IMG/VR virus record: IMGVR_UViG_3300028840_001395
Coordinates: 371,805-435,804 of that record
Origin: a virus
Reading direction: 5' to 3' (one strand)
Length of the DNA: 64,000 bases
The translations under genes were made by a program, and so were the position numbers. Below are positions 13,954-19,193 of the stretch, in pieces (positions within the stretch are counted from its first letter, which is position 1; the number at the start of each line of letters is the position of its first letter). The notes beneath the pieces are model-generated. The model was not told the DNA's origin. It did no database searches and saw nothing but the letters and a program-made list of their open reading frames with translations.

Positions 13954-14811
13954 CTAGACGGGCACGTTCACCGCTTCCTGGGCGAACAACGAAATCGCAC
14001 CGCCGCCGCCAGCACCCCGACCCGCCTGGGCGATGTCGAAGCCCTGCTCCGCGAACCGGATGGAACCGAGCTGACCGACCGTGGGGTCGTTGCCCGTGGC
14101 GAGGAACTCGCCGTAGACCGAGGCGAAGTCGTGAACGTCGGAGATGTTCACGTCGCCGGACTCCATGACCACTCCCGCGTCCTTGGCGAAGGAGGTGCTC
14201 CAGGAGATGAACCAGCACGCCTCGTTCATCGTGATGATGGCGCTGTGGCCCCGGTTGTCGCCCGGCTGACCGCCAGGGTAGTCGCCCTTCTTCGAGTCCG
14301 GGGTGACCTGGGAGAAGCTCACCCGCTTCACGCCACCATCGAAGGCCCCGCTCACGCCCGCCAAGCCCTGGTTCGGGACACCCAGATCCACGTCAGCCAA
14401 CGTCGAGAACACGAGCTGCTGCTCGATGTCGAACGGCCAGCGGTGGTGCTTCAGGGAGCGCACCGGCCCATCCACGCCCGCTGCGTAGCCCGTGGCCTGC
14501 CACAGGTTGCAGAGGTAGAGCAGCGCCCGCTCGAAGGAGCCGCTCATGGGCTCCGTGACGCCAGGCACCAGCTCGGCCACCTGGTCACCGAAGCCGATGC
14601 CACGGACGGGCTCGACGGCACGGGACTCGGACGGGTTGAAGGTCGAGATGACACCCATCTGATGGAGGGCCTTGACCTCTCCGTAGTGGGGCGTCAGCAG
14701 ACGCACCTTCTGGGACACCGCAGTACGGGTGTTCGGGGTCGTCCCGAAGTCGTACATGTAGGAGGTGCCACCGACACCCGACTGGGGGTTGAGGTCGAGA
14801 TTCTTCGCCAT
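13954..14811 (-). CDS. Virion structural protein, tail tube candidate
   Basis: 285 residues. The sequence starts MAKNLDLNPQSGVGG and mixes beta-rich stretches ('HSAIITMNEACWFISWSTSF') with 'GFGDQVAELVPGVTEP'. It ends in a Gly-rich loop and VNVPV. It precedes the chaperone and tape-measure genes, where the tail tube gene normally lies. An accessory island of about 4.7 kb now separates it from the sheath gene. A TATAAT element lies ~50 bases upstream of the start, and the Shine-Dalgarno (CGGAGGAGG) overlaps a small CTCCG/CGGAG hairpin. The 119-residue gene at 19479-19838 is the competing tube candidate. Confidence 0.45.
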   Translation of the reverse strand: MAKNLDLNPQSGVGGTSYMYDFGTTPNTRTAVSQKVRLLTPHYGEVKALHQMGVISTFNPSESRAVEPVRGIGFGDQVAELVPGVTEPMSGSFERALLYLCNLWQATGYAAGVDGPVRSLKHHRWPFDIEQQLVFSTLADVDLGVPNQGLAGVSGAFDGGVKRVSFSQVTPDSKKGDYPGGQPGDNRGHSAIITMNEACWFISWSTSFAKDAGVVMESGDVNISDVHDFASVYGEFLATGNDPTVGQLGSIRFAEQGFDIAQAGRGAGGGGAISLFAQEAVNVPV

Positions 14812-14861: not shown

Positions 14862-14876
14862 ATTATAGGCTCATTA
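14862..14876 (-). promoter_or_regulatory. Late-type promoter element (CCTATAATCC)
   Basis: The minus strand reads TAATGAGCCTATAATCC, with TATAAT at 14867-14862, about 50 bases upstream of the structural gene at 14811. It matches the YCTATAMT element found before seven other minus-strand transcription units. No conserved -35 is present. It overlaps the stop of the nuclease gene remnant. Confidence 0.6.
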
Positions 14877-14978
14877 TTCGGGAGCGTTCTTCTCCCATAG
14901 GTCGTTGAACTCACTCTGGAACTCCTCAACGATGTATTTGAGTCGGAGAACAACGAAGTTCTCGGCGTCCTTCTTGAC
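14874..14978 (-). pseudogene. Remnant 3' end of a PLD-type nuclease gene
   Basis: About 105 bases in an open minus-strand frame encode AENFVVLRLKYIVEEF followed by a short tail ending NAPE and TAA. The final ~29 residues match the C-terminus of the intact nuclease at 15660-16103 (AENFVVIRLKYVIQEF, ending LWELNAP) at about 20 of 29 positions. Many codons differ at the third base, so this is a diverged homologue rather than a fresh copy. There is no start or upstream part. The HNH gene lies exactly between the remnant and the intact gene, so this is probably the recipient's old 3' end left after HNH acquisition. Confidence 0.75.
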
Positions 14979-15003
14979 ACCCAACACGAATTTAGTGTAG
15001 GAT
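14974..15003 (+). promoter_or_regulatory. Sigma70-like promoter of the HNH gene
   Basis: TTGACA (14974-14979), an 18-base spacer and TAGGAT (14998-15003). The expected start of transcription falls at or next to the ATG at 15010, so the mRNA may be leaderless. The -35 box lies in the last codons homologous to the nuclease gene, so insertion may have built the promoter from target sequence. Confidence 0.6.
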
Positions 15004-15009
15004 AGAGGC

Positions 15010-15702
15010 ATGGATGAAGCAACCTTCTGGGATACGACCATCAGGGAACCCAATGGCTGTTGGTTGTGGGCCGGAGCTGTGGCCAGGGATTATGGGGTGG
15101 TGCAGTTCAAGAAAAAGGCGTGGCGTGCCCATCGCCTGGCCTGGACTCTCGCCAACAAAAGACCTATCCCAGAAGGTCTTTATATCCTCCATACCTGCGA
15201 TGAACCCCTGTGCATCCGGCCCGATCATCTCTACGCCGGAACACAGTCTGACAATATGAAGGACGCCTATGCCAGAGGCCGGTGGGTTCGGAAAGGACAG
15301 CCTGGTGGGGAAGCCCATGCGATGGCCAAGCTCACAGAGAATGATGTAGAAGTAATCAGAAAGAGGCTCCTTGCAGGCGAGTCTCAGGCTCGGCTGGCCC
15401 TTGAATATGGGGTCACCCAGTCCAACATTTCCTGTATCGCAAGGGGGGTGTCCTGGCAGCATCTAAAATTGGAGCCCCTCCCCACCCGATGTGGAAGTGC
15501 GAAACCCGGAGCCAAGCTCACAGAAAAAGACATCCCTCTCATCCTCAAACGGATTCAAGACGGGGACTCGATTTCCCGTGTGGCCCACGACTTCAAAGTG
15601 GGGCGGACTCTCATATCTGATATCTGGCATGGGAAAAAGTGGAAACACATCCCACGTCCTCAAGGAGCATTCAACTCCCAGAGTGCCTCAAACTCCTCCT
15701 GA
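15010..15702 (+). CDS. HNH homing-type endonuclease with tandem HTH repeats
   Basis: 230 residues. Residues ~7-100 are an HNH_3-type domain: W-x-W-x-G, YG, AHRLAW, IPEGLYILHTCDEPLC, then H-L-x-x-GT-x-DN and RGR. Two ~45-residue repeats follow, AKLTENDVEVI...SNISCI and AKLTEKDIPLI...TLISDI. Each looks like a helix-turn-helix specificity unit. The last dozen codons run antisense into the 3' end of the PLD nuclease gene. The gene opposes its neighbours, is visibly more AT-rich, and is flanked by two homologous copies of the nuclease 3' end, all signs of a mobile gene. Host-gene cleavage specificity is not known. Confidence 0.85.
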   Translation: MDEATFWDTTIREPNGCWLWAGAVARDYGVVQFKKKAWRAHRLAWTLANKRPIPEGLYILHTCDEPLCIRPDHLYAGTQSDNMKDAYARGRWVRKGQPGGEAHAMAKLTENDVEVIRKRLLAGESQARLALEYGVTQSNISCIARGVSWQHLKLEPLPTRCGSAKPGAKLTEKDIPLILKRIQDGDSISRVAHDFKVGRTLISDIWHGKKWKHIPRPQGAFNSQSASNSS

Positions 15703-16103
15703 AACTCCTGGATCACGTACTTCAATCGGATGACCACGAAGTTTTCTGCATTCCTCTGATCCGCGTTCTTCGTCCAGTTGAATGACCCCGTAGCTACTGC
15801 ACTTGCATCACCAATAACAAACTTATGATGGAGCGAACCGGACTGGTTATCCCGGCGGACAGGGATGCCCACCGCCTCCATCTTCTCGTCGTCCGCCCAC
15901 TTCATCCCGGCCTGGGACTTGTCCATCAAGACCCTGACACGGACCCCTCTCTGGTGGGCCTCGATGAGAGCCTGGGCGATGTCGTCGTGGGTGATGGAGT
16001 AGACGGCGGCGTCAATGAAAGTGTCACACCGCTTGATGAAGCCGATGACCTGTTCTGCCGCACCGCGTCGAGGAGAGAAGTAGACGCTGGCGTATCTTCC
16101 CAT
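15660..16103 (-). CDS. Phospholipase D-like (HKD) nuclease
   Basis: 147 residues with one HKD motif: H-H-K-F-V-I-G-D followed by GSFNWT at about residues 93-111. Single-motif proteins of this type (Nuc, PLDc_2) act as homodimeric phosphodiesterases, often nucleases. 'FIDAAVYSITHDDIAQAL' and 'RVLMDKSQAG' match the typical flanking strands. No signal peptide is seen. Its last 43 bases overlap the convergent HNH gene. Its AGGGAGG Shine-Dalgarno lies inside a perfect 7-bp hairpin four bases before the start. It could belong to the upstream vWA operon or have arrived with the HNH gene from another phage. Confidence 0.85.
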   Translation of the reverse strand: MGRYASVYFSPRRGAAEQVIGFIKRCDTFIDAAVYSITHDDIAQALIEAHQRGVRVRVLMDKSQAGMKWADDEKMEAVGIPVRRDNQSGSLHHKFVIGDASAVATGSFNWTKNADQRNAENFVVIRLKYVIQEFQEEFEALWELNAP

Positions 16104-16138: not shown

Positions 16139-18805
16139 CTACCGGGAGGTGCCCACCGAGATGACCATCTGCCAGCCCTCGTCCGCCGGGGTGTTGCCCG
16201 CGACGATGGACGTGGCCTTGACCAGGTAGTCGTGGGTCATCATGTAGGGCTTGATCTGCCGGTTCTCGATGAGGGTGATGACCCCAGCCAGGATGTCCTC
16301 GTTCTCGGCGTCCTTGTGGGCCTCCAGGAAGGCCACCATCCGGGTCAGGTGCATGTCGTAGGCCGACGTGTCCTTCTCGATGGACACCTTCAGCACCTCG
16401 ATGGCCAGGAGCGCCGTCAGGGTGATGCGGGTCTCGGTGTCGTCGGCGTCCAGGCCACCGTCGTCCCGCAGGTTGGCCAGGACGGTCACGAGGTCCGCGC
16501 CCGGCGGGATGGTGAGGTTGCACATCTCCTCGCTCAAGGAGTCCACGATCTCGCCGCAGGGGTTGTTGGAGTCGAGGAAGAAGCAGGCGTCCTGCACCAT
16601 GTCCGAACCATCGCTGGCGCTGGGGCCGCTGTCGTTGCAGCAGAGGGTCACGTTCTCGGAGATGGGCGTGATGCCCTTGGTGGTGCTGCCACCGCTGCTG
16701 GAGCCGAACACCGGGCTGTCCAGGCTGTCGTGCATCAGCGCCCGGCGCACGCGGGCACCCTTCTTCCGCTTGGCCGACCGGCGACCGCTCATGGACGCCC
16801 CGACCACCTGGTTCGTGTACACGCCCGGCATGGACGTGAATCCACCCCCGCCTGCGCTGGCGCAGATGTTCAGGCTCCGCATCCCGAGCGTCGGCTGACC
16901 GAACACGCCCGCCGCCTGCATGTTCTCAGGCGTCCCCACAGCGACGATCTTCTGCTCGGGCTGCTCACCCGCCTGGTCACCCAGACGCTTCACGACCGCA
17001 CAGAGGCTCATCACCCGGCTGGCCAGGCTGTAGGCCGTCGAAATCTCCTTGAGGTCACGCTCGATGGCCGACTTGGCAGGCCCATCCTGCCCGCACATGT
17101 CCAGGGAGGACTCCAGATCCTCGATCTGCCGCCCAGCCCACAGGAGAGCCACCAGGCCGTTGGGGGTCTCGTGACCCAGCGCGGGCTTGATGACCTTCTT
17201 GCCGCCGTCCCACTTGAGCGTGACCTGGACGGGCAGGAGCTTGCCCTTGCTGCCGTCGTCCGTGATGAGGATGGTCCGACCGTCCCAGATGGTGCCCACG
17301 GTGTGCTCCTGCTTCTTCTTGCCGCCCTTGAGCTTGACCGTGGCCTCCACGTCCGTCTGGACGGGCTGACGCACCGCGTTGAACATGTCGAGAGCGGTGG
17401 TGGCCACGTCCTCGTTGACGCCGACCATCTTGGAGACACCACCCGACCGGCGACCCAGCGCCTCCAGGAAGCGGTCCTGGCTGGCAGCCCCGATGCCCAT
17501 GACGTGGACGCGGGTGCCCGCAGCGGCGACCTGCTCGACAATGGGGCCGGTCTGATACACGGCCCCGTCCGTGATGAGGAAGATGTCCCCACCCGGACCG
17601 CCCAGCACATCCACGCCCGCCCCGAGACCCTCGGCCAGATGGGTGCCGCCACGGGCATCGATCCCAGCGAGCCACTTGCGGGCCTGCTTGCGGTTGGCGT
17701 CCGTGGCCTTGCCCATCTTCTTGTCGAACTTCTCGATGCTGGAGTCGAAGGCCACCAGGCCGAAGTAGTCCTGGGGCTGGAGCGCGGAGATGCACGCCTC
17801 ACAGGCGAGCTTAGCCCGCTCCATCGTGACGCCACCCATCGAACCGGAACGGTCCACCACGAAGCACACCCGGCGCGGCTCGTCCTTGGCCTTGGGAACC
17901 AGGGAGGAGGGCAGCGCGAGGGTCCAGCGGGGGGCCTTCTCGGGGATGGCCGGGTCGTCCTTGTCGGTGGTCTTGGAGACAAGCTCCTCGTCCGCGAACA
18001 TCGTCGGAGTGGCCTCCTGGGTCTTCACATCCACCACGAGGTCGCGGTTCGGCACGTCGGCGCTCCCCGCCAACTCGATCTCCGCCGCCCCATCCTTGAG
18101 GGGGCGCACCAGAACCCGATGCGAAGGCGAGGCCACGGAATCCAGGACTCCGCCGGTCTCGACCCGGATCTTGAAGCTGACCTGGTGCAACCCGTCCGGC
18201 ACGTTCTTCCACTCGGGCAGGATGAGATCCCCGAAGATGTCGGAGGGAAGCTCCATCTTGCCGCCCGCCTCGGTCGCGGTGGCGTTGCCCTTGGCGTGGT
18301 AGCTCGGGGCCAGCGTGAAGGGGAAGCGGAGCCGGAACTTCTCGTCCTCGACATCCACGCCCTGCACGATGTCCAGCATGACCGTGACCATCTCACCGGG
18401 GCGCACCTGACCCACAGAGAGCGTCACCATGCCGTCGTTGTAGGTCTCCGCGAGCACGGAGAGGTGTCCTTCGCTGACGCCCTCCTCGTACTCCTCACGG
18501 GCCTCCTGGCGGGGCGAGAGGGTGGACTCCATCTCGAAGTCCTCGCCCTTGACGATGAAACGCCGGAGCGTGCCCGCGCGCGGGAGCATGAAGGTGTACA
18601 GGGCCTCCATCGGGTTCTCGCCCTCGGCCTTGAAGGCATGGGTCACCCGCAGCAAGGCCCCGGCGGGACTGGCCCTCCCGGACAGGTGAAGCCGCTGCAT
18701 GGCCAGGGCAATCTCTTCCCCTGTGGCGGCGTTGGTCAGGACATTCCCCTGGGGGGTTGTGTCCAGGGCTGTCGCCCCATCGAATCGAGTCGTCCAGCTA
18801 GGCAT
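16139..18805 (-). CDS. VIT domain - vWA domain protein
   Basis: 888 residues from ATG 18805. The start has a GGAGG and overlaps the MerR stop by eight bases; an earlier in-frame ATG lies inside the MerR gene and is rejected. Residues ~20-165 fit a VIT (vault/inter-alpha-trypsin) domain: 'HAFKAEGENPMEALYTFMLP', then RxEAxxEYEEG. Residues ~305-480 are a von Willebrand A domain with an intact MIDAS (DRSGSMGG, then GGTHLAEG and ITDGAVY). The C-terminal ~300 residues contain a basic patch (SGRRSAKRKKGARVRR) and a Cys-containing helical region. There is no signal peptide or anchor, so it is probably cytoplasmic. VIT-vWA proteins mediate Mg2+-dependent protein binding; the phage role is unknown. Confidence 0.85.
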   Translation of the reverse strand: MPSWTTRFDGATALDTTPQGNVLTNAATGEEIALAMQRLHLSGRASPAGALLRVTHAFKAEGENPMEALYTFMLPRAGTLRRFIVKGEDFEMESTLSPRQEAREEYEEGVSEGHLSVLAETYNDGMVTLSVGQVRPGEMVTVMLDIVQGVDVEDEKFRLRFPFTLAPSYHAKGNATATEAGGKMELPSDIFGDLILPEWKNVPDGLHQVSFKIRVETGGVLDSVASPSHRVLVRPLKDGAAEIELAGSADVPNRDLVVDVKTQEATPTMFADEELVSKTTDKDDPAIPEKAPRWTLALPSSLVPKAKDEPRRVCFVVDRSGSMGGVTMERAKLACEACISALQPQDYFGLVAFDSSIEKFDKKMGKATDANRKQARKWLAGIDARGGTHLAEGLGAGVDVLGGPGGDIFLITDGAVYQTGPIVEQVAAAGTRVHVMGIGAASQDRFLEALGRRSGGVSKMVGVNEDVATTALDMFNAVRQPVQTDVEATVKLKGGKKKQEHTVGTIWDGRTILITDDGSKGKLLPVQVTLKWDGGKKVIKPALGHETPNGLVALLWAGRQIEDLESSLDMCGQDGPAKSAIERDLKEISTAYSLASRVMSLCAVVKRLGDQAGEQPEQKIVAVGTPENMQAAGVFGQPTLGMRSLNICASAGGGGFTSMPGVYTNQVVGASMSGRRSAKRKKGARVRRALMHDSLDSPVFGSSSGGSTTKGITPISENVTLCCNDSGPSASDGSDMVQDACFFLDSNNPCGEIVDSLSEEMCNLTIPPGADLVTVLANLRDDGGLDADDTETRITLTALLAIEVLKVSIEKDTSAYDMHLTRMVAFLEAHKDAENEDILAGVITLIENRQIKPYMMTHDYLVKATSIVAGNTPADEGWQMVISVGTSR

Positions 18806-19193
18806 CTTCGTCCTCCCTCTCCTCCACATCTGTCGTGGTCTGTACGGCCCTGGCGAACGTCTCCAGGGCGCGAAAAACGATGCGCTTCCGATGGGGCGGG
18901 AGTGAGTTGTCCACACGAACCTCCACTCCCTTGGTTACCCCGAACACCTGATGGATGGATCCCTTGAGCGTCAGGGGGCGCTCCATCAGGTCGTTCTTGA
19001 TCTGGTCGAGGGTCATTCCCTCCGCCTGAAGCTCCTTGATGCGCTTGATGATGGTGAGGTGGTCTTCGGTGTAGGGGGCACCTGGCCCCTGACGAACCGG
19101 GCCGGGCAGGAGCTTGCTGGTCACATAGTAGCGAATCGTGCGAGCCGGAACCCCCGACTGCTCCGCGAGTTCCTTCATCGTGAGTGTCTTCAT
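18798..19193 (-). CDS. MerR-family transcriptional regulator
   Basis: 131 residues. The N-terminal winged HTH is typical: 'MKELAEQSGVPARTIRYYVTS', then LLPGP...G-APYTEDHL and IKRIKELQAEGMTLDQIK. No effector cysteines or known ligand pocket are visible. The C-terminal ~60 residues are unlike classic metal sensors. It heads a two-gene operon with the VIT-vWA protein (8-base overlap) and is preceded by a consensus TTGACA-17-TATAGT promoter with repeated CGACAGT/TGACAGT words. This suggests autoregulation. Confidence 0.9.
   Translation of the reverse strand: MKTLTMKELAEQSGVPARTIRYYVTSKLLPGPVRQGPGAPYTEDHLTIIKRIKELQAEGMTLDQIKNDLMERPLTLKGSIHQVFGVTKGVEVRVDNSLPPHRKRIVFRALETFARAVQTTTDVEEREDEDA

Follow-up and report, generated by a model that had tools for sequence, protein, structure and literature searches.

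A presumed homing HNH gene in a giant-phage PLD nuclease gene lies between a displaced native 3' end and an apparently foreign 3' end of that gene

The terminal 64 kb (hereafter the window) of a 435.8-kb virus record, a giant-phage genome, was analysed, and an HNH endonuclease gene was found between two diverged 3' ends of a PLD-family nuclease gene. We consider it likely that a free-standing homing HNH gene invaded the PLD gene and brought a foreign PLD 3' end with it. The replacement of the gene end is well supported by sequence comparison; the steps of homing we infer.

The genes at the locus are arranged in the order VWA, PLD (-), HNH (+), PLD stub (-) and TUBE (-) (Table 1), and the HNH stop and the PLD 3' end overlap by 43 nt in antisense. 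The limits of the incoming segment were drawn from the stub, the imported end and the GC profile. TUBE is used as a label only; the protein matched nothing in Pfam or PHROG, and its homologue in phage Tunturi_5 is annotated as a virion structural protein. The VIT/VWA gene adjoins the PLD nuclease gene in many relatives, in which the arrangement is syntenic. Upstream of the VWA gene, a small DNA-binding protein with a weak PADLOC match to mad1 (MADS) is encoded at 18798-19193 (-). Elsewhere in the window, ARAGORN reported three odd tRNA-like genes with unassignable anticodons (37924-37997, 40983-41059 and 41072-41146, all +), which are probably spurious.

Table 1. Features of the PLD/HNH locus (positions in the window unless another locus is named)
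Feature	Position	Strand	Remarks
TUBE, conserved 285-aa gene	13954..14811	-	downstream synteny anchor
PLD stub, displaced native 3' end	14874..14996	-	TKFVLG HKD-side fragment, 18-codon deletion, KKDAENFVVLRLKYIVEEFQSEFNDLWEKNAPE, stop
Probable incoming segment, PLD 3' end + HNH gene	14997..15839		~0.84 kb; boundaries approximate
HNH endonuclease gene	15010..15702	+	230 aa, antisense to PLD; presumed homing endonuclease
HNH_3 nuclease domain	15127..15258	+	residues 40-83 of HNH protein
Two helix-turn-helix (HTH) DNA-binding repeats of HNH gene	15322..15660	+	residues about 105-217
PLD-family nuclease gene, chimeric	15660..16103	-	147 aa, single HKD motif, Nuc/Zucchini-like
PLD imported 3' end	15660..15839	-	~codon 89 to stop; placed by GC3 drop, breakpoint approximate
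VIT + von Willebrand A (VWA) domain protein	16139..18916	-	upstream synteny anchor
L016 PLD gene	L016 3322-3792

The product of the invaded gene matched PLDc_2 in Pfam (5.3e-28) and, by phmmer, Nuc (1byr, 1.7e-17). The structure predicted for it was confident, with a mean pLDDT of 80, and resembled Nuc and Zucchini most closely; Foldseek gave a TM of 0.85 against 1byr. Salmonella Nuc (PDB 1byr) and Zucchini/PLD6 (4ggk) resemble the product in fold and HKD motif, a likeness that concerns the target gene and not the insertion. PADLOC matches of the PLD protein (DrmC and others) were discounted as generic PLD similarity. The intact chimeric protein carries H92, K94, D99 and GSFNW, and the imported 3' end contributes the complete HKD and GSxxN catalytic region. 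The open frame, the intact HKD and GSxxN motifs and the confident Nuc-like predicted fold lend indirect support to the view, put forward in the first-pass annotation, that the invaded gene is still functional.

A tblastn search of the PLD protein against its own 435.8-kb record returned exactly two places, the PLD gene itself (100%) and a second place, located downstream of HNH, in which query residues 114-147 align with 62% identity (E 3.7e-10). An ungapped DNA match of 94 nt between the two ends scored 36, and the maximum among 300 shuffles was 14. Over the final 29 codons, the new and the old copy share 21 of 29 residues (72%); over 32 codons they share 21 of 32 residues and 67.7% of nucleotides, and silent codon differences occur at 11 of the 21 residues common to both. 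The two copies have the same order and strand. The first-pass annotation had described the last ~29 codons as occurring twice around the HNH gene, and this duplication is real, but the old copy does not start there: the in-frame sequence SYTKFVLG lies further upstream and matches HHKFVIG in the HKD-motif region of the intact gene. The old copy is therefore probably homologous as far upstream as the catalytic HKD codons; this HKD-side match comprises about five residues and is weak alone, and the stub of a second locus, described below, starts at the same codons.

After SYTKFVLG, a deletion of 18 codons removed the D of HKD and the GSFNW motif from the stub, indicating that the old end cannot serve as the catalytic end. 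The old frame stays open until the native stop codon, which lies 62 nt before the TUBE start. The sole PLD stop of two HNH-free relatives lies 53 nt (L039) and 58 nt (L086, to the aligned ATG) from TUBE; the stub is thus at the native distance and in the native place. The displaced end also forms an open 45-codon frame at 14874-15011 (-), the ATG of which overlaps the opposite-strand HNH start region, and judging from its sequence it could be translated.

We examined PLD loci of relatives without the HNH gene, a comparison that the first-pass annotation had proposed for detecting both 3' ends in the absence of HNH. All nine such loci (L001, L002, L023, L039, L086, L091, L093, L245 and L246) contain a single PLD 3' end, so that two ends were found in 2/2 HNH-bearing and 0/9 HNH-free loci (Fisher p 0.018, near-identical contigs counted once). 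A close HNH-free relative of the window phage was looked for and not found; the foreign nature of the window's new end is therefore argued from composition, position and analogy with the second locus. In the uncultured 485-kb phage LR745208.1, TUBE is present, and neither PLD nor HNH was found at the TUBE locus.

The second HNH-bearing locus, L016, lies on an independent phage contig and was found in a scan for TUBE relatives (80 loci); like the window, it comes from a metagenomic assembly. Its gene order is PLD, antisense HNH, stub, a small antisense HTH gene and TUBE. The L016 HNH is 52% identical to that of the window, has the same orientation and overlaps the PLD end by 47 nt. The similarity of the two junctions, with the HNH gene on the opposite strand and overlaps of 43 and 47 nt, suggests that the PLD end and the HNH gene travel as a unit. 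The L016 stub reads KFCIGDGN, followed by an out-of-frame deletion and QKEFERIWKLNAY-stop, and begins at the same HKD codons as the window stub. Its end and flank were identical at 51/53 nt to the sole PLD end and flank of the HNH-free locus L023, where the matched end adjoins the same HTH gene, whereas the functional PLD end of L016 showed only 67% nucleotide identity to L023. These results indicate that in L016 the stub is native, the closer of the two ends to the relative, and that the functional end is the newcomer. The 5' half of the L016 gene is 69% identical to L023, compared with 96% for the stub, so this region may have undergone further recombination. Sequence identity in L016 and position in both L016 and the window thus mark the stub as the native end. 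Together with the 2/2 versus 0/9 distribution, these 51/53 positions make the first-pass proposal, that a donor allele carried with the HNH gene replaced the gene end, the best-supported account. The new ends of the window and L016 did not resemble each other more than they did other phages, and segment-wise identities did not pinpoint their donor; the ends are too short to yield an informative tree.

A duplication made in place at insertion, by target-site duplication or repair slippage, with later divergence, would yield two copies in the same order and on the same strand, as observed. It would, however, require that in L016 the unselected copy stayed at 51/53 while the selected one diverged to about 67%, and it does not account for the foreign-looking composition of the new end; we regard it as very improbable. 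The first-pass statement that the arrangement is not a simple target duplication is borne out by the same figures, the unused copy of L016 being the one that resembles L023.

Composition changes inside the window PLD gene. GC3 is 0.82 up to codon 88 and 0.58 beyond it, a modest change with a permutation p of 0.03 for the change point. The breakpoint, placed approximately, precedes the first histidine of HHKF by four codons. The window HNH gene has a GC of 0.55 and a GC3 of 0.60, and GC3 is about 0.89 in the VWA and TUBE genes. In L016, GC3 of the PLD gene falls after codon 47 (p 0.015) and not at the HKD motif, so that the exchange there may reach further upstream; no such fall was found in the HNH-free PLD homologues. 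These compositional results support replacement of the end without being decisive.

The divergence between the two ends, at about a third of positions, is what would be expected had two tandem PLD paralogues been present, the older of which decayed to its 3' end, with the HNH gene landing between them by chance. This history is quite improbable: no HNH-free relative has a second PLD gene or a second end, both stubs start at about the same codons, the L016 stub is almost identical to a relative's sole end, and the GC3 change within the intact PLD gene would be left unexplained.

The HNH gene matched Pfam HNH_3 (4.5e-10) and PHROG 59 (3.7e-34) and therefore has the catalytic domain of an intron-less homing endonuclease gene. 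Its two C-terminal HTH repeats provide a DNA-binding module of predicted sequence specificity, and the gene is polymorphic at an allelic site within a conserved gene, being present in the window and L016 and absent from the nine other PLD loci. The HTH repeats of the window HNH have homologues in relatives, where HTH-only genes fill the same slot. Antisense double-HTH genes occupy the slot upstream of TUBE in L001, L016, L017, L019, L022, L023 and L026, and those of L017 (4438-4896) and L019 (4425-4871) retain the HNH linker (GQPPGEAHPSAKLTE). In a tree without outgroup, the L017 and L019 genes and the two HNHs formed one group (support 0.997). Both genes have the look of former HNH genes in which DNA binding was retained after loss of the nuclease domain, and the HTH-only genes may be domesticated regulators.

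The HNH gene might instead owe its presence not to its own activity but to ordinary illegitimate recombination between phages that by chance fell in the PLD gene; it would then be a passenger, or an HNH with a regulatory or packaging role. HTH-only relatives in the same antisense slot, possibly domesticated regulators, would fit such a history, as would the fact that HNH cleavage is a prediction from sequence. Set against this, the same event occurred at the same codons in two diverged phages with related HNHs, and the gap falls at the most conserved motif of PLD, as expected of a homing site. We therefore judge a passenger role unlikely.

Integrative elements that regenerate the end of their target gene, such as prophage e14 in icd, characteristically replace the gene's 3' end by one with silent differences. 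Site-specific integration of this kind is scarcely credible at the PLD locus, where the insert has no recombinase, HNH being its sole enzyme, and the junctions have no identical core or repeat. A group I intron or an intein was rejected, since the PLD frame is complete without splicing and no Rfam match was obtained up to E 1. Tandem paralogues, in-place duplication, integrase-type integration, intron and intein were thus each tested and disfavoured.

For the entry of a homing HNH gene together with a foreign PLD end, we propose the following steps. The HNH enzyme, or a relative, would have cut the HKD codons of a PLD allele without HNH, and the PLD sequence 5' of the break would have undergone recombination with the PLD gene of a donor. 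Repair synthesis would then have copied the 3' end of this donor gene and, next to it, the HNH gene on the opposite strand. The far side of the break, lacking homology, would have been resected and rejoined illegitimately, leaving a partly deleted stub. The PLD reading frame would be kept in this way without intron or intein, and the altered third positions of the HKD codons could prevent recutting. A break at HKD, 5' invasion, donor copying and illegitimate joining would together account for the orientation, the deleted stubs, the restored gene and the compositional step. Free-standing homing nucleases break alleles that lack the nuclease gene, and recombination then copies the gene into them as the flanks are co-converted. 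In T4, where one side lacks homology, repair is completed illegitimately at microhomology and sequence is lost (PMC2988022).

Other phage HNH loci were surveyed for similar duplications. A gene-end duplication hugging the HNH gene was detected in 3/81 other phage HNH loci and in 0/461 control ORFs (p 0.003, at a threshold of 26 bits chosen after seeing the data), leaving 78 of the 81 loci with no detectable duplication; the survey misses short stubs, including that of L016. No convincing gene-end duplication was found in eight named-phage regions with nine HNH genes (Mx9, ZH4, RN5i1, Pam5, CR44b, TH20, Belphegor and Vibrio 1.191.O) or at the second HNH of the window's phage genome, and no single repeated element family was found across HNH loci. 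All three survey cases are mirror images, with duplicated gene starts, and one is supported by synteny. In this case (L170 and L253, same contig; L253 1937-3118), an antisense HNH lies between a displaced start (MAINTFATLKTAVANWL) and a complete gene for a T7-like tail tubular protein A, which begins MAISNYSELKTAVATWV. Six HNH-free relatives (L254-L259) have one start each, and the upstream gene directly adjoins the start in L255, L258 and L259 and adjoins the stub in L253. The other two are weaker candidates: at L150 2956-3446, MARGDNSIKCP and VARGDNSIKCP flank the HNH gene, and at L136 1716-2561 it is flanked by MTQSAYKPMHKAEKYVSQ and MAQAPYQPMRKPQKDVSQ; a viral scan for relatives of the L136 gene returned only L136 itself.

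Tentatively, these loci may represent a class of splice-less homing elements of phage HNH type that carry a recoded 3' end (window, L016) or 5' end (L170, L150, L136) of the target gene as rescue and immunity, that is, natural recoded-rescue drives, although we think it somewhat doubtful that a class of this breadth exists. A Home-and-rescue (HomeR) drive is similarly a homing nuclease cassette within a gene, and the gene is preserved by a re-coded 3' end; the drive is engineered, with Cas9/gRNA in flies, whereas the window case is natural and its drive putative (PMC7968924).

The closest known arrangement is that of the gene hybrids formed by mobile ORFs in fungal mitochondria, in Allomyces macrogynus atp6 and in Glomus atp6, atp9, cox2 and nad3 (PMC3630166). 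As in the window, a gene core is followed by a foreign in-frame C-terminus, an endonuclease ORF and the displaced native C-terminus; the native end matches relatives and the inserted end does not, and the differences are mostly silent (PMC3630166). The order of the Allomyces atp6 case recurs in the window, in a 435.8-kb virus record and not in a mitochondrion. The fungal hybrids are mitochondrial, and their ORF, which for atp6 is of the LAGLIDADG type, often shares the phase of the gene (PMC3630166), whereas the window case is a phage locus with an opposite-strand HNH bearing HTH repeats and a partly deleted stub.

Among phages, the T4 seg/mob genes resemble the window HNH as intron-less nuclease genes beside a conserved target gene, and flank co-conversion, double-strand-break repair and one-sided illegitimate events are known for them (PMC2988022). 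The seg/mob genes on record either lie between two intact genes or interrupt one, as mobE does in Aeh1 nrdA. A literature search of open-access papers turned up no description, for phages, of a displaced native gene end next to its replacement. The nearest phage case is the ShiLan insertion with a hidden HNH in a mycobacteriophage methylase (PMC11855218). It is likewise a phage HNH insertion, the first 11 codons of which resemble the target just beyond the insertion site; unlike in the window, the methylase is read through the whole insertion, only 11 residues are repeated, and the end is not replaced (PMC11855218).

The arrangement indicates that splicing is not needed for an intron-less nuclease gene to persist inside a conserved gene, provided that it swaps in its own version of the gene end. 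It would extend a rare fungal-mitochondrial mechanism to phages and give it a searchable sequence signature, a nuclease gene flanked by two diverged copies of a gene end. It would also supply a natural counterpart of engineered recoded-rescue drives, for studying resistance and rescue, and is one route by which phage genes turn chimeric at conserved catalytic motifs.
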